Part shown: positions 51,474-59,371 of the stretch, piece by piece | How positions within the stretch are numbered: the first letter of the stretch is position 1 | Layout: each line of letters opens with the position of its first letter | Source: Pseudodesulfovibrio indicus | Lineage (GTDB): Bacteria > Desulfobacterota > Desulfovibrionia > Desulfovibrionales > Desulfovibrionaceae | DNA length: 64,000 bases | Assembly: GCF_001563225.1 (NCBI RefSeq) | Contig: NZ_CP014206.1 | Span: 186,001-250,000, forward strand | Direction of reading: 5' to 3' | Position numbers and translations under genes: made by a program | The notes under the pieces: model-generated | What the model was told of the DNA's origin: nothing | The model's input: the letters and a program-made list of their open reading frames with translations, nothing else | The model's database searches: none

Positions 51474-51731
51474 CTACTCGTGCTCTTCGAACCCCTGGGC
51501 CTGCTTGTACGCTTCCCACTCCTCGTGGGTCACCACGCCGTCCCTGTCCGCGTCGGCCCGGTCGAAGACCGAGGTATCGCCCTCGGAAAAGGCGACCAGG
51601 AATTCGCCCTTGGACATGGAGCCGTCGGCGTCCGCGTCCAACGAATTGAAGCAGACGTTGTAGTTGGTGCGCGCAGCCACGGGCTGGCAGAGGAGCAGCG
51701 CGAACGCCGCCGCCAGGATCAGTTTCTTCAT
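51474..51731 (-). CDS. Exported EF-hand calcium-binding protein
   Basis: 85 residues. Signal peptide (MKKLILAAAFALLLCQPVAA), then two EF-hand loops with intact acidic positions: DADADGSMSKGEF and DADRDGVVTHEEW. It would bind Ca2+ in the periplasm. It lies 19 bp downstream of the CsoR-like regulator on the same strand and is probably cotranscribed with it. One Cys (NVCFNSLD) remains in the mature protein. Confidence 0.85.
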   Translation of the reverse strand: MKKLILAAAFALLLCQPVAARTNYNVCFNSLDADADGSMSKGEFLVAFSEGDTSVFDRADADRDGVVTHEEWEAYKQAQGFEEHE

Positions 51732-51750: not shown

Positions 51751-52044
51751 TTAGCCTTCGATGAACCCCGTCACGACGCCGATGAACTTCTCGAGCGCGT
51801 CCTTGGGGTCCGCTCCGTTTTCCATGGATTCCGCATAGCATTTGATCAGATACCGCTTCAGAATGAGCTTGTTGGCGGACTGGAGCGCGGAACGGACGGC
51901 CCGCATCTGGACCAGAATATCCTGGCATTCCTTGCCGGACTCGATCATGCCCTGGATGCCCCGGACCTGACCTTCGATGCGCTTCATGCGGGAGAGTACG
52001 TTCTTCTTGATCGCCTGCTCTTCCGCGGTCATGGCTTCATCCAT
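51751..52044 (-). CDS. CsoR/DUF156-family regulator with Cys-Tyr-Cys site (CstR-like)
   Basis: 97 residues from ATG 52044, chosen for AAGGAG 7 nt upstream. All-helical DUF156 repressor: VLSRMKRIEGQVRGIQGMI, then KECQDILVQMRAV. The metal/thiol triad positions are Cys40, Tyr65 and Cys69, with the same 25+4 spacing as Cys36-His61-Cys65 of mycobacterial CsoR. Loss of the His with both Cys kept is the pattern of CstR, which senses persulfides. The neighbours, two rhodanese genes and a thiosulfate/polysulfide-type reductase, support that reading. Divergent from the TorD-like gene; operator-like palindromes lie in the gap and at 59256. Confidence 0.85.
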   Translation of the reverse strand: MDEAMTAEEQAIKKNVLSRMKRIEGQVRGIQGMIESGKECQDILVQMRAVRSALQSANKLILKRYLIKCYAESMENGADPKDALEKFIGVVTGFIEG

Positions 52045-52094
52045 TTCAGTCTCCTTTGTCTCGGTCCACGTTCCCGTTGCCCTGCCATGCTCTT

Positions 52095-52114
52095 TACCGT
52101 ACTGTCGTAGGGTA
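52095..52114. promoter_or_regulatory. Possible operator between the CstR-like regulator and TorD-like gene
   Basis: TACCGTAC-TGTC-GTAGGGTA, 8-bp arms with one mismatch, 50 bp from the regulator ATG and 30 bp from the torD start. On the minus strand it reads ATACCC, as does the site at 59256-59274. Confidence 0.5.
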
Positions 52115-52144
52115 TTTTCCAATGCAAATGCGGGGGTTGCCTTC

Positions 52145-52762
52145 ATGCCGATATCCCAGTCGAAAATAGTGCTTCTCAATCTAATGGAGTTGTGCGTCGC
52201 CGTGTTTCGGGGACCGGGCCGGGAAGACTGGTCCCGGCTGGCAGACACTGCCTTGCCTCAACTCCTCGACCATGTCCAGGCTTTTCCCGGATTCCCTTCC
52301 GGACCGCTCCGGGACATGGCCCACGCCCTCGCGCCGCTGGCGGAATCCGGCGACTTCTCCGACCTGGAGACCGAGTACGTCCGCCTGTTCATCGCCGGTC
52401 CCGGCGGCATCCCGGCTCCGCTCTACGAATCCTGCCACCTGGGCAACGAGCGCCGGACCATGGGCCGGAGCGCCCTGGACATGCGCGACCGCCTGGCGGC
52501 CGCCGGGCTTTCGGTCGCCCTGGACTCCAACGAGCCGCCCGACCACCTGACCCTGGAGCTGGAGTATCTCTACCACCTCTGCGCCGAGGGCTGGGCCAGT
52601 GATCCAGCCCTGGCCGAACAGGCCGAAGCCTTCGCCGCCCAGGTCATGCTCCCGTGGGTCCGCCGCTTCCGCGACGCCCTGGCCGGGGCCGACCCGCATC
52701 CCGTCTACCTGGGCGCGGCGGACATCGTCGTGGCCGTACTCGAGAGGGTCCCGGACGCCTAG
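52145..52762 (+). CDS. TorD-family molybdoenzyme maturation chaperone
   Basis: 205 residues from ATG 52145 (GGGGG 8 nt upstream); ATG 52184 is a possible shorter start. Helical TorD/DmsD-type protein: LMELCVAVFRGP, LAESGDFSDLETEYVRLFIAGPGG, then the family pattern PLYESCHLGNERRTMG and a late LTLELEYLYHL. Such chaperones bind the Tat signal of a molybdoenzyme and help cofactor loading; the client is surely the Tat-tagged catalytic subunit at 56455-58650. Its TAG stop overlaps the TAG of the converging selenoprotein gene. Confidence 0.88.
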   Translation: MPISQSKIVLLNLMELCVAVFRGPGREDWSRLADTALPQLLDHVQAFPGFPSGPLRDMAHALAPLAESGDFSDLETEYVRLFIAGPGGIPAPLYESCHLGNERRTMGRSALDMRDRLAAAGLSVALDSNEPPDHLTLELEYLYHLCAEGWASDPALAEQAEAFAAQVMLPWVRRFRDALAGADPHPVYLGAADIVVAVLERVPDA

Positions 52763-53769
52763 TCCGCGCCCTCGGCCCGGACCACCGCCGACCGCAGCAC
52801 GCTCAGGAACTGCTCGTCCGGCTCGAAATAACCGCGCTTGATCAGCTCGATGTTCCAGGTCCCGTCTCCCTTGGCCCGGACCAGGTAGGCCAGCGGCAAC
52901 TCGGCCTGGCCGAGGCATTCGAATATCTGCCCGCTCTTGTCCGAGAACAGCGGATAGGCCACGTCGTAGTGCTTGCGGAACCGGACCACCTGCTGGTTCG
53001 AGTCGTAGATGCCCAGGCCGATGATCTTGAGCTGCCCGTGCAGCACCGGGTCCGCCTCCACGAGCTTGAAGAACCGCGTCAGCTTCTTGGTCTCGGCCAC
53101 GCAGTCGTTGCACAGGGTGTTGTAGAGCTGGATGAGCACGAACCGCGCCTTGAGCTCGGACAACTCCAGGAACCGCGCGCCCTCGGGCAGCTCCAGGTAT
53201 TCCCGGTCCTCGTCGCCGTTGAGCACCGCCACCCGGCAGGTGGGGAAGTCGTCGCCCACGGCCAGGACGTGCTTCTCCTCGGTCTTGCCTTCCACCAGGG
53301 TCGGATGCTTCTCCTTCCAGCCGTGAAAGCCGCCTGGGTACCGGTAGACGTTGGTATAACCGAGACGCGCTGCCCAGCGCGCCGCAATGGAGCTGCGCAG
53401 TCACCTGAAGCTCCGGCAGTAGACGACCAGCATCCGGTCCTTGTCCGGGCCGAGCAGGTCCTGCAGGGCCTGGCGCTTGGCCTGCGGCAGCTCGATGTCG
53501 TCGCCCAGGTCGAACTCCAGGTTCGCCGCCCCGGGGAGATGCCCGGCCGCGAACTCGTAGTCCGCGCGGGCGTCCAACAGGACCATGTCCGCCTTTTCGT
53601 CCACGAGCTTCCTGAGCCCGTCGTCGTCCAGCAGCAGGTAACCGTCGCGGTCCGCCTCGGCCTGGGCAGAAGCCCACCATATCTCGGTCTCGTCGGCCAG
53701 CGCGGGCCGGACGGGCAGAAAACACAAGGCGAGGAGCAGCCATGCAACACAGGTGATCGGTCTTTGCAT
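52759..53769 (-). CDS. Selenoprotein candidate: rhodanese domain with in-frame UGA, fused to a CxxC redoxin
   Basis: 336 residues if UGA at 53401-53403 is read as Sec123. A signal peptide (about 1-25, ...RPALA) leads into a rhodanese domain whose active loop is YCRSFR-U-LRSS, then ARLGYTNVYRYPGG. In the adjacent triple-rhodanese protein the loops are YCGGFDCPLS and YCGGYACALS; Sec123 aligns exactly with the second, catalytic Cys (C-x4-C). After the rhodanese comes a redoxin/TlpA-like domain (about 170-336) with C220-N-D-C223. The frame is open on both sides of the UGA, and a hairpin follows it directly. The usual machine call would be two genes, 53401-53769 and 52759-53295. Confidence 0.8.
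53370..53400 (-). promoter_or_regulatory. Candidate bacterial SECIS hairpin
   Basis: Immediately 3' of the UGA, CTGCGCAGC pairs with GCTGGGCAG (one G-G mismatch) around a 13-nt loop. Position and size fit a bacterial SECIS; the loop bases have not been tested against SelB rules. Confidence 0.5.
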
Positions 53770-53833
53770 CTTTGCTCCCCGCCTTTTTTATTCTCGGCGT
53801 GCCGGGGATGTTCCCGGCCGTGTCGGTCGATCC

Positions 53834-54934
53834 CTACTTGTTGGGATGGACCTCATAGCTGTTGTCGCTGCCGAAGGAGTTGGTGGCTTCCAGGTAGAAG
53901 ACCTTCTCCACCTCGGGGCGCAGGTCCTTGAACAGGTAGAACGCCTCGCCCGCCCGAGCGCCGGAGGCGCAGGAGAAGACGATGGGCTTGTCGGTCGGGA
54001 TCTCGGCGGCCTGCTTCTCGATCATGTCCACGGTCATGTTCACGGCGGACGGGAAGTGACCGGCGGCGTACTCTTCGGGATCACGCACGTCGATCAGCAG
54101 GATGGAATCGGGATTGCTCTTGATGGTCGCCAGGAACCACTCGGTGTCCACGGCGCCTTCGGCCTCGCCGGCCATGACGGCGCCGGTGTCGGCCGCGCCG
54201 AACATCTCCTTCCAGCCGGGGTAGCCGGCCTCGGCCACGAGCACGTTCTTGTAGCCCAGGTAACGGGCCTTGACCGCGGACTTGTGGGACAGGGCGCAGG
54301 CATAGCCGCCGCAGTAGTAGATCAGGGTCACGTTGGCCTTGTCCACGGGCAGCATGCCGCGCTTGGCCGCGAAGTCCTTCTCGGGGATACCGACGGCGGA
54401 GGGGATGGCCCCTTCCAGGAACTTCTTGTACGGGCGGGCGTCGATGACCAGCTGCTGGTCACCGGCGGCGATGCGCTCGCTCAGGTTCTCCAGGCCGATG
54501 GAATAGTACGGCGCGTTCTTCTTCCAGTCCGGGAAACCGGCGGCGTAGACCTTGATGTTGGTGTAGCCCAGGGCCTCGGCCGCATAGGCGGACTTGTGGG
54601 ACAGCGGGCAGTCGAATCCGCCGCAGTAGAAGATCAGCAGCGCGCCCTTGTTCGCGGGCAGCTTGTCCGTCATCTTGTCGAACTGGCTGGCCGGGATGGA
54701 CACGGCGGTGGGGATGTACCCCTCGACGTACTTGGGCTTGTAGGGACGCGAATCGATGACCATCACGTCCTTGGGCTGGGGCATCTTCGCGTACTTGGCC
54801 ACGAAGGCGTAGTCCACGATGGCGGTATACTGCTTGAACGCGGGCTTCTTCCCGTCCTGAGCCGCTGCGGGCCCGGCCATAGCCGCCACCATGAACGCCA
54901 GCACGACGGCCACGGCAATCAACTTCTTGTGCAT
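53834..54934 (-). CDS. Periplasmic protein with three rhodanese domains
   Basis: 366 residues with signal peptide (about 1-25). Domain 1 (about 40-140) has the loop C104-GGFD-C109-PLS; domain 2 (about 145-245) has C208-GGYA-C213-ALS; domain 3 (about 262-360) has the classical loop C322-ASGAR. All three keep a catalytic Cys, so it can carry or transfer sulfane sulfur in series. It lies 64 bp upstream of the selenoprotein gene and 59 bp after the cytochrome b gene, in the same operon. Confidence 0.92.
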   Translation of the reverse strand: MHKKLIAVAVVLAFMVAAMAGPAAAQDGKKPAFKQYTAIVDYAFVAKYAKMPQPKDVMVIDSRPYKPKYVEGYIPTAVSIPASQFDKMTDKLPANKGALLIFYCGGFDCPLSHKSAYAAEALGYTNIKVYAAGFPDWKKNAPYYSIGLENLSERIAAGDQQLVIDARPYKKFLEGAIPSAVGIPEKDFAAKRGMLPVDKANVTLIYYCGGYACALSHKSAVKARYLGYKNVLVAEAGYPGWKEMFGAADTGAVMAGEAEGAVDTEWFLATIKSNPDSILLIDVRDPEEYAAGHFPSAVNMTVDMIEKQAAEIPTDKPIVFSCASGARAGEAFYLFKDLRPEVEKVFYLEATNSFGSDNSYEVHPNK

Positions 54935-54993
54935 GACACACTCCCTTCCTAAAGGATTGTTTTTTCCCGCCTGCGCGGGACCCTCTTTCTATG

Positions 54994-55722
54994 CTACTCC
55001 GAGCCCTCGGACCCGGATCTGACCTTTTCCCACCACAGCCGGTGATGGTGCTTGGCGTAGTCGCCCGGCACCACGCCGGTGAACATGGACTTGAAACCGG
55101 GCCGCTCCTCCGGGGAGATGGCGGCCATGTAGACGTGGACCAGGAGACCGGCGAAGACCAGCCCCACACCGATGAAGTGCAGGGTCACGGCCCAGCCGAC
55201 CATGCCCGTGGACTCGGCCCCGAAGGTCCGGTCGGAGAGGTACATGATCACGCCGGTGACGGCGATGACGATGCCGCCCACCACCGAGGCCTGGGCAAAC
55301 GCCTTCTGGCCCATGTTGTAGTATCCCTGGTCGGGCAGGTCGGGGCTCGCGCCCACGGCCTTGAGCGCCTTGGGACCCAGGGTCATGAGGATCATCTTCT
55401 TGAACATCCAGGCCATGTCGCGGGCCGGGCTGACCGCGAAAACCTCGGCCAGGAAGAACTTCGCGCCCCGGAAATTGACCAGCAGGTAGAGCAGGAAGCC
55501 CGCGATCCAGACCAGGCCGATGAACTCGTGGATGGCCAGCAGGTTTCCGCCGCCGCCCACCAGGGAACGCAGCGCCTCGGGATAGCCGGAACCGAACGGG
55601 TCGATGTCCGGGTTCTGGATCAGCCCCACGCCGGTGAGCAGGAGCAGCAGCCAACAGGCCGCGTTGAACCAGTGGATGAAGATGTCGGACCTGTCGTGTC
55701 GCTTGTAGGTCTTGCTAGGCAT
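54994..55722 (-). CDS. Cytochrome b membrane subunit (PhsC/FdnI-like)
   Basis: 242 residues from ATG 55722, which has AGGAGGA just upstream and overlaps the ferredoxin-subunit stop by 8 nt. About four to five membrane helices with paired His suited to b-haems: RHDRSDIFIHWFNAACW, LLAIHEFIGLVWIAG, AVTLHFIGVGLVFAGLLVHVYM. It links the periplasmic enzyme to the quinone pool. FdnI-like cytochrome b, rather than NrfD, is what PhsABC thiosulfate reductase uses. Confidence 0.9.
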   Translation of the reverse strand: MPSKTYKRHDRSDIFIHWFNAACWLLLLLTGVGLIQNPDIDPFGSGYPEALRSLVGGGGNLLAIHEFIGLVWIAGFLLYLLVNFRGAKFFLAEVFAVSPARDMAWMFKKMILMTLGPKALKAVGASPDLPDQGYYNMGQKAFAQASVVGGIVIAVTGVIMYLSDRTFGAESTGMVGWAVTLHFIGVGLVFAGLLVHVYMAAISPEERPGFKSMFTGVVPGDYAKHHHRLWWEKVRSGSEGSE

Positions 55723-56455
55723 CGCCGTCCTCCTTGTGGTCGGTGCCGGAACCGGCAAACAGCTGCCGTCCGAGCATGGCCAGGACGCCGAGGCCGGACA
55801 GGGCCACGACTCCCTTGATCAGCGGGGCGGTCTGCTTCATGGCCACCATGGACGCGGGGATCACGGCCTCGCGGCCCCACTCGCCCGGACCGGGATCGCC
55901 CAGGTAGTACATGTTCGGCTTGGTGTCGGTCTTGGCCGCCACGCGGGTCAGCCGCTCCTTGTTCTTGTTGTAGAGGATGCCCGCCGCGCTGGCCGGGTCG
56001 TTGATGTCGCCGAAGACCCGCGCCTTGGTCGGGCAGGTGTCCACGCACGCGGGGGGCAGCCCTGCGGCGCGTCGCTCCGGGCAGTAGTTGCACTTGTCCG
56101 CCTTGCGCTTGACCTCGTTGCGGAAACGGGCGTCGTACGGGCAGGCCGGGATGCAGTTGCCGCAGCCGATGCACAGGGCGTCGTCGATGACCACCTCGCC
56201 GGTGACCGTGTCCTTGTAGGTCGCGCCCGTGGGACAGGCCGACACGCAGGTGGGGTTTTCGCAGTGCATGCACGCGCCGGGCTGGAAGCGCGGCTTGCCG
56301 TCGCCCCTGCCCGGGACCGCCGGTGCGCCGGTGGTCTTGATCCAGTTGCGGAACTGCCCTTCGGGGACCTCGTTGGCCACCTTGCAGGCCGCCACGCACG
56401 CCTTGCAGTCGATGCACTTGGCCGCATCGATGACCATGGCGAGTTGCTGTGCCAT
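55715..56455 (-). CDS. Four-cluster ferredoxin electron-transfer subunit (PhsB/NrfC-like)
   Basis: 246 residues. Four [4Fe-4S] cysteine groups: C14-IDC-KAC-VAAC, C-MHC-ENPTCVSACP, CIGCGNCIPACP and CNYCPER...CVDTCP. A C-terminal membrane anchor (LIKGVVALSGLGVLAMLGRQLF, about 215-236) attaches it to the membrane. It carries electrons between the catalytic subunit and the cytochrome b. Its ATG shares one base with the catalytic subunit stop (TAATG), so synthesis is coupled. Confidence 0.93.
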   Translation of the reverse strand: MAQQLAMVIDAAKCIDCKACVAACKVANEVPEGQFRNWIKTTGAPAVPGRGDGKPRFQPGACMHCENPTCVSACPTGATYKDTVTGEVVIDDALCIGCGNCIPACPYDARFRNEVKRKADKCNYCPERRAAGLPPACVDTCPTKARVFGDINDPASAAGILYNKNKERLTRVAAKTDTKPNMYYLGDPGPGEWGREAVIPASMVAMKQTAPLIKGVVALSGLGVLAMLGRQLFAGSGTDHKEDGDA

Positions 56456-58650
56456 TACGCCACCTTCCTTGTTACGGAGACAAACGTGGTGTGCATGGAC
56501 GCGTTGCCGGTGATGGCGTCGTAATCGTCGTCCAGCAGTTCGTTGATGGATGCGCCGTTGTTGTGGGACAGGTGCTGCATGGTGGACAGGGTGTTGAACC
56601 CCGAGAGCATGAACACGGTGTCCGGGCGAATCCTGTCCGTGACCTCGGCCTTGAGCTCCTGGCGGCCCACGGGGCTGGAGACCTCGACAAGGTCACCGTC
56701 GCCGATGCCCAGGTTCCCGGCCGCCTCGGTATTCAGCCACAGGGTGTTGGTGGGCATGAACTCGTGGAGCAGGGCGTTGTTGGTGGTCGAGGTCTGGGTG
56801 ATCATGGCGTTGCGGCCGATGACCATGCGGAACTGGTTCTCGGGCGGGGAGTCGGGCTCCTTGTACACGGGCAGCGGGTCGATGCCCATCTGCTCGTACC
56901 GCTGGTTGTACAGCTCCACCTTCTTGGAAAGGGTCTTGTAGATGCGGCCGTCGTAGATGCCGTAGACCTTGGACGGGTTGTAGTACACGCCGTCGCGGTC
57001 CATGACCCCCAGGGCCTCCGGGATGTCGCGGGTCTGCATCTCGCGGTACTCCTCGATGGTGAAGTCGAAGTACTCGCCCAGCTCCATCCTGCCCGCGATA
57101 CCCTTCATGATGTCGAACAGGGGCCTGGACTCGTAGAGCGGCTCGATGACCGGGTCGCGCTTGACCACGCAGGCGCAGGCCACGGACCCTTGCAGGCCGG
57201 AGCACGGGTCGGTGCGCTCCAGGTAGCTCTGGGAGGGCAGGACCAGGTCGGCCATCCAGGCGGTGTCGGACATGGCGATGTCCACCACGGTGACGAAGTC
57301 CATCTTGTTCATCATCTCGATGGTCTTCTTGCGGTTGGGGGCCGTGCCCATGGGGTTGGTCTTGTAGATGAACCAGCCGCGGATGGGGTACGGATCGTCG
57401 GCCAGGACCGCGTCGCGGGTGACCAGGAAGGACCCCTCGTGCTCGAACATCATCGGCACCTTGTGGGCGTCGATGCGGTCCTCCTGGTTCTCGTCGTACC
57501 AGGGGGCGTCGTAGGGCACGCCCTTGAGGCCCACCTGGCGCGCGGCCAGCAGCCCGCCGGGCTTGTCCCAGTTGCCGAGCAGCCCATTGACGATGGCGAA
57601 GCTGCGGCGGATCTGGGTGGAATCCTCATAATCCGAGGTGCGGCGGCCGGGATAGACCATGGAGGCCGGGGCCGCCGCTGCCAGCTCGCGGGCCATGCGG
57701 GTGATGTCCTCGGCCGGGATGCCGCACTGCTCGCTGGCGAAGCCGGGGGTATACGGCTGCACGTGGGCCGTGAGCTGCTCGATGCCGTAGGTCTTCTCCT
57801 CAATCCACTGGGGATCGTAGAGCTTCTCGTTGATGATCACGTGGGCCAGGGCGAGCATGAAGGCCATGTCCGTGCCGGGCCTGACCGGATACCACTCGTG
57901 GGACAGGGCCGCGGTCTTGGTGTAGCGCGGGTCCAGGGTGACCAGCTTGCAGCCGTTTTCGCGGATGGCGGTCATCAGGTCGATGGAGTCCGGGGTGACC
58001 AGCGCCTCGAAGCGGTTGGCCCCGACCATCATCACGTACTTGGAATTGAGGACGTCGGCGAAGGGGACCTCGCCGAAGGTGTCGAGGAAGGCGCGGCTGC
58101 CCGAGACCAGGCACAGGGATTCGTGCGAGGTCACGTTGAAGGAGCCGTAGACTTCGGCGAACCGGCCCACGAACTGCGAGTGCAGGTCGGTGCCCGCCGT
58201 GAACAGCTGCCCGCAGGGGGTATACTTGTCACGGACCTCGGCCATCTTCTGGGCGGCCATGTCCAGGGCCTCGTCCCAGGGGATGCGCTGCCACTTGCCC
58301 TCGCCGCGTTCGCCCTTGCGAAGCAGCGGGTGCTTGAGGCGGTCCGGGTCGTAGACCTGGGCCAACCCCGCGTTGCCGCGCGCGCACAGCATGCCCCTGG
58401 ACTTGAGAAACTTGGGATTGGGGTCGAGCTTCTTGACGACCCCGTCTTCAACCCGGGCGATGAGCCCGCACTTGTTGAAACAAATGTCGCAGGCCGAGAA
58501 TTTGGATTCCCAGGCGGGCTTGGGCGCCGCTGCCGCGTGCGACTTGGTCAGGCCGCCGAGCAGCGCAGGGCCGCCCACCGCCCCTGCCGCGACCAGGCCG
58601 GTGGCCCTGAAAAAATCGCGACGGGACATAGTCTGCTTGGAATTGGGCAC
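56455..58650 (-). CDS. Molybdopterin oxidoreductase catalytic subunit (thiosulfate/polysulfide reductase type)
   Basis: 731 residues. A Tat signal (SRRDFF at 9-14, then an Ala-rich stretch) exports it. The N-terminal [4Fe-4S] site is C54-x2-C57-x3-C61...C89; the Mo ligand is probably Cys180 in TSHESLCLVSG, as in PhsA/PsrA enzymes. The C-terminal domain binds the second pterin (about 600-725; NTLWLNTEAAGNLGIGDGDLVEV split over it). It probably reduces thiosulfate, polysulfide or tetrathionate; the exact substrate is inferred from neighbouring rhodaneses. It needs the TorD-like chaperone at 52145. Confidence 0.9.
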   Translation of the reverse strand: MPNSKQTMSRRDFFRATGLVAAGAVGGPALLGGLTKSHAAAAPKPAWESKFSACDICFNKCGLIARVEDGVVKKLDPNPKFLKSRGMLCARGNAGLAQVYDPDRLKHPLLRKGERGEGKWQRIPWDEALDMAAQKMAEVRDKYTPCGQLFTAGTDLHSQFVGRFAEVYGSFNVTSHESLCLVSGSRAFLDTFGEVPFADVLNSKYVMMVGANRFEALVTPDSIDLMTAIRENGCKLVTLDPRYTKTAALSHEWYPVRPGTDMAFMLALAHVIINEKLYDPQWIEEKTYGIEQLTAHVQPYTPGFASEQCGIPAEDITRMARELAAAAPASMVYPGRRTSDYEDSTQIRRSFAIVNGLLGNWDKPGGLLAARQVGLKGVPYDAPWYDENQEDRIDAHKVPMMFEHEGSFLVTRDAVLADDPYPIRGWFIYKTNPMGTAPNRKKTIEMMNKMDFVTVVDIAMSDTAWMADLVLPSQSYLERTDPCSGLQGSVACACVVKRDPVIEPLYESRPLFDIMKGIAGRMELGEYFDFTIEEYREMQTRDIPEALGVMDRDGVYYNPSKVYGIYDGRIYKTLSKKVELYNQRYEQMGIDPLPVYKEPDSPPENQFRMVIGRNAMITQTSTTNNALLHEFMPTNTLWLNTEAAGNLGIGDGDLVEVSSPVGRQELKAEVTDRIRPDTVFMLSGFNTLSTMQHLSHNNGASINELLDDDYDAITGNASMHTTFVSVTRKVA

Positions 58651-58773
58651 TGAGTACCTCCGAACGTCCGCTTGTGTTGCATGTTCACGGCTCCCGACCG
58701 GCCGGTTGTTCCGGCTCGCGGCCGGGGGAGCCGCCGTATGGCGCGGCCCGGCTCCTCCACCGGTCCGCGCGGA

Positions 58774-58801
58774 CGCCGCGCCGGGATTGCCCGGCGCGGC
58801 G
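58774..58801 (-). other. Strong GC hairpin between the cytochrome c and catalytic-subunit genes
   Basis: 12-bp arms CGCCGCGCCGGG / CCCGGCGCGGCG with a short loop and no T-run. It lies in the 162-bp gap just after the cytochrome c stop and could stabilise or attenuate the mRNA, making cytochrome more abundant than the enzyme. Confidence 0.6.
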
Positions 58802-58812
58802 CCGTCAGGGCG

Positions 58813-59133
58813 CTAGCTGCACTTGGCCGGGGACGGGGAGTCCTTGGCGTAGTCGTGCAGATAGGAGAAGATGTCGTTCAAATCCTTCTCGTTCACGGTC
58901 CAGTCCGGGCTGCACTTGATCTTGGACGTATCCGAGAACATGGCGGTCCACTCGGCCTGGGTCTTGGATGCCGGGCTGAGGTCGCTGGCGGTCTGGCCGT
59001 GACAGGAACGGCAGTTCTTGCGGTACAGGAACTTGCCCTTGCGGGCGTTGCCGCCACCCATGGCAAAGGCCATGGATACGGCGAAAACGGTGATCAGGGC
59101 GGTTGCGGTGGCCAGGATGAGCTTGCTTTTCAT
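58813..59133 (-). CDS. Small monohaem cytochrome c
   Basis: 106 residues from ATG 59133 with TGGAGG upstream. Signal peptide (MKSKLILATATALITVFAVSMAFA), one haem-binding motif CRSCH at 41-45, then KTQAEWTAMFSD and a class I-type C-terminal helix (NEKDLNDIFSYLHDYAKD), as in cytochrome c553-like proteins. Two further Cys (KIKCSPD, PAKCS) may form a disulfide. It is first in the operon and probably donates electrons to, or takes them from, the reductase complex. Confidence 0.88.
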   Translation of the reverse strand: MKSKLILATATALITVFAVSMAFAMGGGNARKGKFLYRKNCRSCHGQTASDLSPASKTQAEWTAMFSDTSKIKCSPDWTVNEKDLNDIFSYLHDYAKDSPSPAKCS

Positions 59134-59253
59134 GGTGCCTCCAAAGTTGACTGTTGCTCTCTGCAAAGGGTTTTTCCCACTCTCGCCGACCCTAAGGCCC
59201 GGCGCTATGTCCCAACAATTATAACCTGTACCCGGTATGGGCGTTTCGATTCC

Positions 59254-59282
59254 CATATACCCATACCGGGTATAGGTGTCAA
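59254..59282 (-). promoter_or_regulatory. Promoter with embedded TATACCC/GGGTATA operator for the reductase-rhodanese operon
   Basis: On the minus strand: TTGACA (59282-59277), exactly 17 nt, TATATG (59259-59254). The spacer holds a perfect inverted repeat TATACCC-GGTAT-GGGTATA (59256-59274) reaching into the -10. A second, matching arm CCTGTACCCGGTATGGG at 59225-59241 gives a larger 17-bp inverted repeat with one mismatch, next to a TATAAT at 59223-59218. It is ~120-150 bp upstream of the cytochrome c ATG. C/G-run palindromes with TA edges are the kind of site DUF156 repressors use. Confidence 0.8.
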
Positions 59283-59342
59283 GGGGGTCGGATAGAGAAA
59301 ATAAATGCCTCACAAAAAAAGCGGACACCTCGCCAATAGGCT

Positions 59343-59371
59343 TTACCGACAAACCGAATTATTGGTATAGC
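59343..59371 (+). promoter_or_regulatory. Possible promoter of the FecR-OmpA gene pair
   Basis: TTACCG, 17-nt spacer, TATAGC, ~30 bp upstream of the FecR ATG. Confidence 0.4.

Follow-up and report, generated by a model that had tools for sequence, protein, structure and literature searches.

A C-x4-U rhodanese fused to a redoxin domain: a predicted selenoprotein encoded with a Phs-like molybdoenzyme operon in Pseudodesulfovibrio indicus and relatives

Described selenocysteine rhodaneses and sulfur-reducing systems

Rhodaneses are textbook one-cysteine sulfurtransferases, where the canonical nucleophile is residue 1 of the active-site loop. Among the described forms with selenocysteine (Sec), TsoB (NF045694; rhodanese form 5, UxxxxU), for which a 2026 inventory of selenoproteins cites Haft and Tolstoy 2025, gives the highest-scoring NCBIfam match for the rhodanese half of the protein considered here (105.8 bits, residues 8-156). 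The two are alike in that Sec stands at the same loop position and the rhodanese is fused to a thiol-reducing module. They differ, however, in that the loop of TsoB holds two Sec residues (U-x4-U vs. C-x4-U here) and in that TsoB has a DsbD-like membrane part and a thioredoxin-like C-terminus with a CxxC where the present protein has a redoxin domain, and no gene of the operon described below alongside it at the four loci examined (L079-L082). With a score far below the TsoB cut-off of 805 bits, a C-x4-U loop and a redoxin instead of DsbD, the protein falls outside this family.

The inventory comprises 119 selenoprotein families, including rhodanese forms with the motifs UxxS, UxxG, CxU, UxxG, and UxxxxU, and its Table 1 contains neither a C-x4-U rhodanese nor a rhodanese-redoxin fusion among the 119 (PMC13188914, Table 1). 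Forms 1-4 likewise carry Sec in a rhodanese domain, with motifs that differ from the present one as given in that table, except that U-L-R-S here fits UxxS by its letters; the C-x4-U site may therefore already be known as form 1 (WP_010941598.1), the comparison being one of motif letters alone (PMC13188914). In another report, the selenoproteins include a “sulfurtransferase homologous to a rhodanese-like protein,” which may cover the Sec-rhodanese family met here (PMC5029168), and a full-text literature search covering few subscription papers returned neither the rhodanese-redoxin fusion nor the operon. The gene family is a fresh variant of known Sec-rhodaneses and, where an earlier note on this DNA had spoken of a probable new selenoprotein, the novelty holds at the level of the variant but not of the site, TsoB with its U-x4-U loop and rhodanese-DsbD architecture already having Sec at the loop position.

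The accompanying genes and domains also have described counterparts. Unlike in the ResA/TlpA-type periplasmic thiol-disulfide reductases, the redoxin domain here sits behind a Sec-rhodanese. The operon resembles PhsABC of the Salmonella type in that Mo, FeS, and cytochrome b subunits occur together, but differs from it by an extra cytochrome c, a triple rhodanese and the Sec-rhodanese; its Mo subunit scores 528 bits with the PhsA model, whose cut-off is 694. The MOLY cluster, i.e., MolyABC, is presented as a sulfur-disproportionation marker of the Desulfobacterota, set apart from membrane-anchored Mo enzymes (PMC12998232); it shares with the present locus the A and B subunits of an exported Mo enzyme and a TorD-like chaperone, whereas the accessible part of its description mentions no Sec-rhodanese. 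The Mo-enzyme operon at 52759-59352 could overlap the MOLY or PhsA groups, both treated there as candidates for sulfur disproportionation (PMC12998232).

The gene and the reading of its in-frame TGA

The gene lies in the window, i.e., the whole stretch of 64,000 nucleotides of P. indicus DNA that was analysed, and comprises the following features:

52759..53769, minus strand: Sec-rhodanese/redoxin gene, 336 codons plus a TAG stop, translated with TGA as Sec
53692..53769, minus strand: N-terminal hydrophobic segment, likely a signal peptide of the Sec type with its end around ALA-D (judged visually; alignment of 29)
53308..53616, minus strand: rhodanese domain, residues 52-154 (PF00581, E 3.5e-19, 69.6 bits; AlphaFold model)
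53416..53418, minus strand: C118, canonical rhodanese catalytic Cys, active-site loop residue 1 (29/29 aligned; meets Cys of 6mxv and 6bev)
53401..53403, minus strand: TGA decoded as Sec123, the latter of the two redox positions in the C-x4-U loop (TGA or TGC/TGT in 88/88 labelled rows)
53359..53400, minus strand: putative SECIS region (synonymous constraint; three hairpins, weak or no covariation)
52867..53259, minus strand: ResA/AhpC-TSA-like redoxin domain, about residues 171-301 (PF00578; PF08534 under cut-off; ResA matches)
53101..53112, minus strand: CNDC motif (C220-x-x-C223) of the redoxin (26/29 aligned; 31/32 full-length loci)

The in-frame UGA, claimed earlier at 53401 within a 336-codon frame, is indeed codon 123 (53403-53401) on the minus strand, which the earlier note had left unstated, and the translation identifies it as the sole internal TGA of the frame running from 53769 down to 52759. 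Under genetic code table 11, the gene is cut into a 122-aa ORF (53769-53401) and a 178-aa ORF starting from GTG at codon 159 (53295), with codons 124-158 falling in neither. The rhodanese homology said to resume past the UGA is found there, LGYTNVYRYPGG coming after the TGA and the PF00581 match (residues 52-154) spanning it. The fusion of a rhodanese and a CxxC redoxin in one chain is supported as well, namely by a PF00581 domain with a Cys opening its active-site loop (C118), as in the rhodanese superfamily, and by an AhpC-TSA match (PF00578, residues 201-289, 27.2 bits for a cut-off of 26) with the CNDC motif, the predicted thioredoxin-type fold and the CxxC at a helix start being those of an AhpC-TSA/ResA-like redoxin. 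In the AlphaFold model (pTM 0.57, relative domain orientation uncertain), the segment linking strand 113-117 to helix 125-135 contains both C118 and position 123, and helix 221-239 begins right after C220. The proposed periplasmic location finds support in the signal peptide, judged by eye, with which the protein is likely exported.

In 297 genomes of the order, searched with the read-through protein as query and matches listed best first, full-length homologs were found among the matches listed in 42 genomes, the own genome included; 38 of them carry TGA at codon 123 and the remaining four TGC. Cys or UGA at this position in homologs is the outcome that the earlier note had named as confirmation. 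Within the genus, 27 of the 33 listed genomes have a full-length homolog among the matches listed (23 TGA, 4 Cys), whereas for the other six none is listed at full length. Named genomes, whose loci partly repeat the same genomes as the order search, were scanned as well and gave 43 loci, i.e., 32 full-length (23 TGA, 9 TGC), six with the rhodanese only (TGA), and five distant matches (L148-L152), where position 123 belongs to a C-x4-C loop in two, is Gly in two and a gap in one. After removal of one duplicate protein, 16 loci of already-included genomes and the five distant matches, 88 tree rows were labelled for both loop positions, namely 71 Cys/Sec, 13 Cys/Cys, and 4 Sec/Sec; leaving out these distant matches, position 123 is thus Cys or Sec and nothing else in 88/88 rows, which argues against other readings of the UGA. 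The tree of these 88 rows is poorly resolved and, under parsimony, requires eight switches into or out of the Cys/Cys state, at least two of them forced by well-supported branches. Among 395 genomes drawn from the phylum, the full-length fusion occurs in five besides the own genome (3 Cys, 2 TGA) and hence is uncommon outside the order.

Selection was examined in 22 of the 23 TGA-bearing members of the genus, one identical protein being omitted. Over codons 124-158, the median pN is 0.170 against a pS of 0.509, with pN < pS in 230 of 231 pairs; because this segment would be untranslated if the TGA were a stop, such purifying selection, like the TGA/TGC pattern among the 42 homologs, speaks against chance. 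Amino-acid-corrected synonymous conservation peaks in the 13-codon windows starting at codons -2 to +1 of the TGA, the one beginning one codon 5′ of it ranking top of 255 windows (observed/expected 1.42), and codons +1 to +13 (11 usable) reach 1.38, a value matched by a fraction of 5e-5 of 20,000 random column draws. With no amino-acid correction and laxer coverage, the TGA window comes eighth of 315, after N-terminal windows with few comparable pairs. The synonymous constraint at the TGA fits an overlapping RNA element. Regarding its fold, covariation was tested on 22 sequences, 16 of them distinct. Of the 9-bp hairpin reported to start right after the UGA, the pairing stands in that bases +1 to +9 pair with +23 to +31 at eight of nine positions, with one G-G mismatch, but it has no double changes in relatives, which makes it weak as evidence. 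A 13-pair SECIS fold likewise has no double changes among these sequences, while an 8-pair fold from +18 to +37 after the UGA has two pairs with double changes, a count equalled by 75 of 500 shuffles and a covariation score equalled by 14 of 500, and one slid control has three double-change pairs. The consensus fold after the UGA is weak (-8.0 kcal/mol) and an Rfam scan of the window gave no match. The SECIS fold is putative, none of the folds tested being convincing.

The Sec machinery, which the earlier note had also named as a check, is present in the own genome over curated cut-offs, namely SelA (617.8 bits), SelB (396.1), SelD (328.3), and tRNA-Sec (81.2 bits). The selD gene (C1:420357-421286, L108) itself contains one in-frame TGA. 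Presence of tRNA-Sec was considered as a test of the Cys against the Sec forms and is uninformative in the order, where 68 of 68 genomes are positive. Outside the order, where 15 of 17 loci were searched, tRNA-Sec exceeds 70 bits in six of nine TGA genomes and four of six Cys genomes, and selA occurs in 14 of the 15 genomes, including all nine with TGA forms, the exception (L125) being a Cys form. As judged from sequence comparison, the UGA at codon 123 is decoded as Sec and the gene is a selenoprotein gene.

The active-site loop and the surrounding operon

The position of Sec within the loop was assessed in an alignment of 29 of the 42 listed fusions, where C118 is present in 29/29, either Cys or Sec occupies position 123 in all 29 (26 TGA, 3 TGC) and the redoxin CxxC is found in 26/29. 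Alignments to 6mxv (both domains) and 6bev place C118 opposite a Cys, and the known structures are without two residues within 121-124, U123 lying in or beside this two-residue loop extension. In the C-x4-C loops of the neighbouring triple rhodanese (YCGGFDC, YCGGYAC), the counterpart of U123 is the second Cys. The canonical rhodanese Cys (C118) of the protein is intact and Sec occupies the second place of a C-x4-U loop. Where the UGA had been said to fall on the catalytic Cys of the neighbouring domains, the alignment was right, since these domains have C-x4-C at the same places, but the label was not, the catalytic residue being the first one, which is kept. For the same reason, i.e., the conservation of the nucleophile C118 in 29/29, the placement of Sec in the sulfur-transfer position is probably wrong, and a resolving role for Sec123 fits better.

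The loop varies among related proteins. TGA at both places (U-x4-U) is found in the TsoB-like L079-L082 and, elsewhere in the phylum, in L178-L182; these nine TsoB-like loci are spread over several families. A single-domain rhodanese paralog in the own genome (C1:1100801-1101301, L155) has the loop YCGFVKC with Cys at both places. The expectation that single-domain paralogs of the phylum would be form 1 with Sec was rejected, 25 of 25 loci (L153-L177) having Cys at both places. Across the fusions, the TsoB-like loci and the single-domain paralogs, the loop is seen to exist as C-x4-C, C-x4-U, and U-x4-U. The second domain varies as well. In one genus (g13), the aligned fusions L054-L056, and also L141, are without the redoxin CxxC while keeping the UGA, and the second domain may have turned structural there; the fusions of this genus (L054-L057, L059) keep the Sec-rhodanese loop. 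The rhodanese domain stands alone at 20 loci (L058, L060-L078; 18 TGA, 2 Cys), 19 of which are beside at least one other operon gene. Together with the CxxC loss in g13, these rhodanese-only loci imply that reduction in cis is not essential.

The neighbourhood was counted over 76 non-redundant loci encoding the protein. This set excludes L079-L084, i.e., the TsoB loci plus two further paralogs, where none of the operon genes occurs. In the window, the neighbouring genes, with the number of loci where each has a match (same-strand for the triple rhodanese), are as follows:

53834..54934, minus strand: triple-rhodanese protein, domains 1-2 with C-x4-C (PF00581 in three stretches; 66/76)
54994..55758, minus strand: cytochrome b membrane subunit, start uncertain (PF01292; TIGR01583 88.3 bits, below cut-off; 70/76)
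55715..56455, minus strand: 4Fe-4S electron-transfer subunit (PF13247; 69/76)
56455..58650, minus strand: molybdopterin catalytic subunit, PhsA-like (NF012032; 66/76)
58813..59352, minus strand: c-type cytochrome, operon gene 1, start uncertain (PF13442; 60/76)
51977..52762, plus strand: ORF with a TorD/DmsD-type chaperone, true start probably downstream (PF02613, 98 bits; 57/76)
51751..52044, minus strand: CsoR/RcnR-family repressor, C-Y-C at the Cu site, CstR-like (PF02583; C-Y-C in 48/49 matches)

The recurring order is cytochrome c, Mo subunit, FeS subunit, cytochrome b, triple rhodanese, and Sec-rhodanese, with TorD and often the CsoR-like gene (38 of 76 loci) alongside, and the records bearing it include Pseudodesulfovibrio, Salidesulfovibrio, Desulfarculaceae, Desulfocarbo, Desulfobacteraceae, and strain NaphS2. 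The Mo subunit is missing at ten loci, eight of which have less than 2.7 kb of upstream sequence, and only L078 and L118 have room for it. PhsA (NF012032) is its best model match, at 528.3 bits under the cut-off of 694. The assignment of the locus to a reductase operon is supported, as the Phs-like Mo enzyme, FeS, and cytochrome b genes recur at most of the 76 loci. A small exported-looking EF-hand protein is encoded beside the operon (51474-51731, minus strand).

Copper-sensing CsoR-type repressors have Cys, His, and Cys at the metal site, and CstR is a CsoR-family protein with the Cys pair but without the Cu-binding His. The neighbouring repressor has C40-Y65-C69, i.e., the Cys pair and no such His, and C-Y-C recurs in 48 of 49 matches at 98 loci around the gene family, where some genomes are counted twice. 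These residues suggest a CstR-like sulfane-sulfur sensor. Homologs of CstR are reported to respond to reactive sulfur, and rhodaneses encoded nearby are often among their targets of repression (PMC10318464).

Proposed function and competing explanations

The reading we favour, and hold to be somewhat probable, is that the exported C118-x4-U123 rhodanese with its CNDC redoxin is a periplasmic persulfide reductase working beside a quinol-driven sulfur/thiosulfate reductase, likely under the control of a sulfane-sulfur-sensing repressor. In such a cycle, C118 would take sulfane sulfur from thiosulfate, polysulfide or persulfides of the neighbouring triple rhodanese, the Sec123 selenolate would attack or trap the C118 persulfide, and sulfide would be released with a C118-Sec123 selenenylsulfide remaining; the redoxin domain would reduce this Se-S bond and could itself be recharged via CcdA/DsbD-type membrane thiol carriers. 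The DsbD-type reductase that TsoB bears on its Sec-rhodanese, and the presence in the own genome of two genes that exceed the DsbD_TM cut-off, support a thiol relay of this kind. More tentatively, the C-x4-U rhodanese might not be a sulfurtransferase but a one-loop Sec persulfide reductase, which closes a Cys-Sec bond, frees sulfide and has its own redoxin as donor, a proposal we regard as possible rather than probable.

Sud is the sulfur carrier for polysulfide reductase in Wolinella, and the same selenoprotein might, although we think it unlikely, be a sulfur carrier too, where C118, or a perselenide on Sec123, passes sulfane sulfur on to the Mo reductase and the redoxin serves solely to maintain the loop in its reduced state. 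Its fixed site in a Phs-like operon adjoining the triple rhodanese agrees with such a role, as does the presence among the PDB sequence matches of chain 1qxn (E 2.3e-5), named sulfide dehydrogenase, which we take to be Sud; a carrier, however, could do without the additional redox residue of the loop and without a fused CxxC domain, the triple rhodanese already supplies carrier domains, and TsoB joins its U-x4-U loop to a reducing module. Clearly less probable is a thiol/selenol oxidoreductase acting in the repair or oxidant defence of the operon proteins, or in the handling of selenite or tellurite, without being centrally involved in respiratory sulfur flow. The redoxin domain structurally matches peroxiredoxins too, uncharacterised selenoproteins are mostly thought to be redox proteins according to the inventory (PMC13188914), and the rhodanese-like extH of Geobacter shares a cluster with extI, which is implicated in selenite/tellurite reduction (PMC5877670), but the linkage to a Mo-reductase operon in several families and the C-Y-C repressor point to sulfane sulfur instead. 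Finally, that the TGA is a true stop, whether through pseudogenisation, an error in the sequence or a pair of adjacent genes as the two table 11 ORFs with a second start from GTG at codon 159 would have it, is scarcely credible given the TGA in 38 of the 42 listed full-length homologs with Cys in the remaining four, the pN < pS in 230/231 pairs over codons 124-158 outside both ORFs, the synonymous constraint at the TGA and the Sec machinery of the genome.

Should the one-loop Sec persulfide reductase be real, it would give a recurring sulfur-respiration operon of the Desulfobacterota an arm that releases sulfide and is driven by thiols, and C-x4-C, C-x4-U, and U-x4-U would form one series tuned by selenium. 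The annotation would also be mended, since the standard reading halves the gene, as the table 11 ORFs show here. More broadly, a conserved loop with a second redox residue, which is Sec in most members found, together with the fused reductase points to a part of the rhodanese superfamily that reduces sulfur, beyond moving it. For the sulfate reducers, this offers a gene with which the periplasmic steps of sulfur/thiosulfate reduction, so far poorly understood, can be tested, and suggests a dedicated route from bound sulfur to hydrogen sulfide outside the cell membrane.
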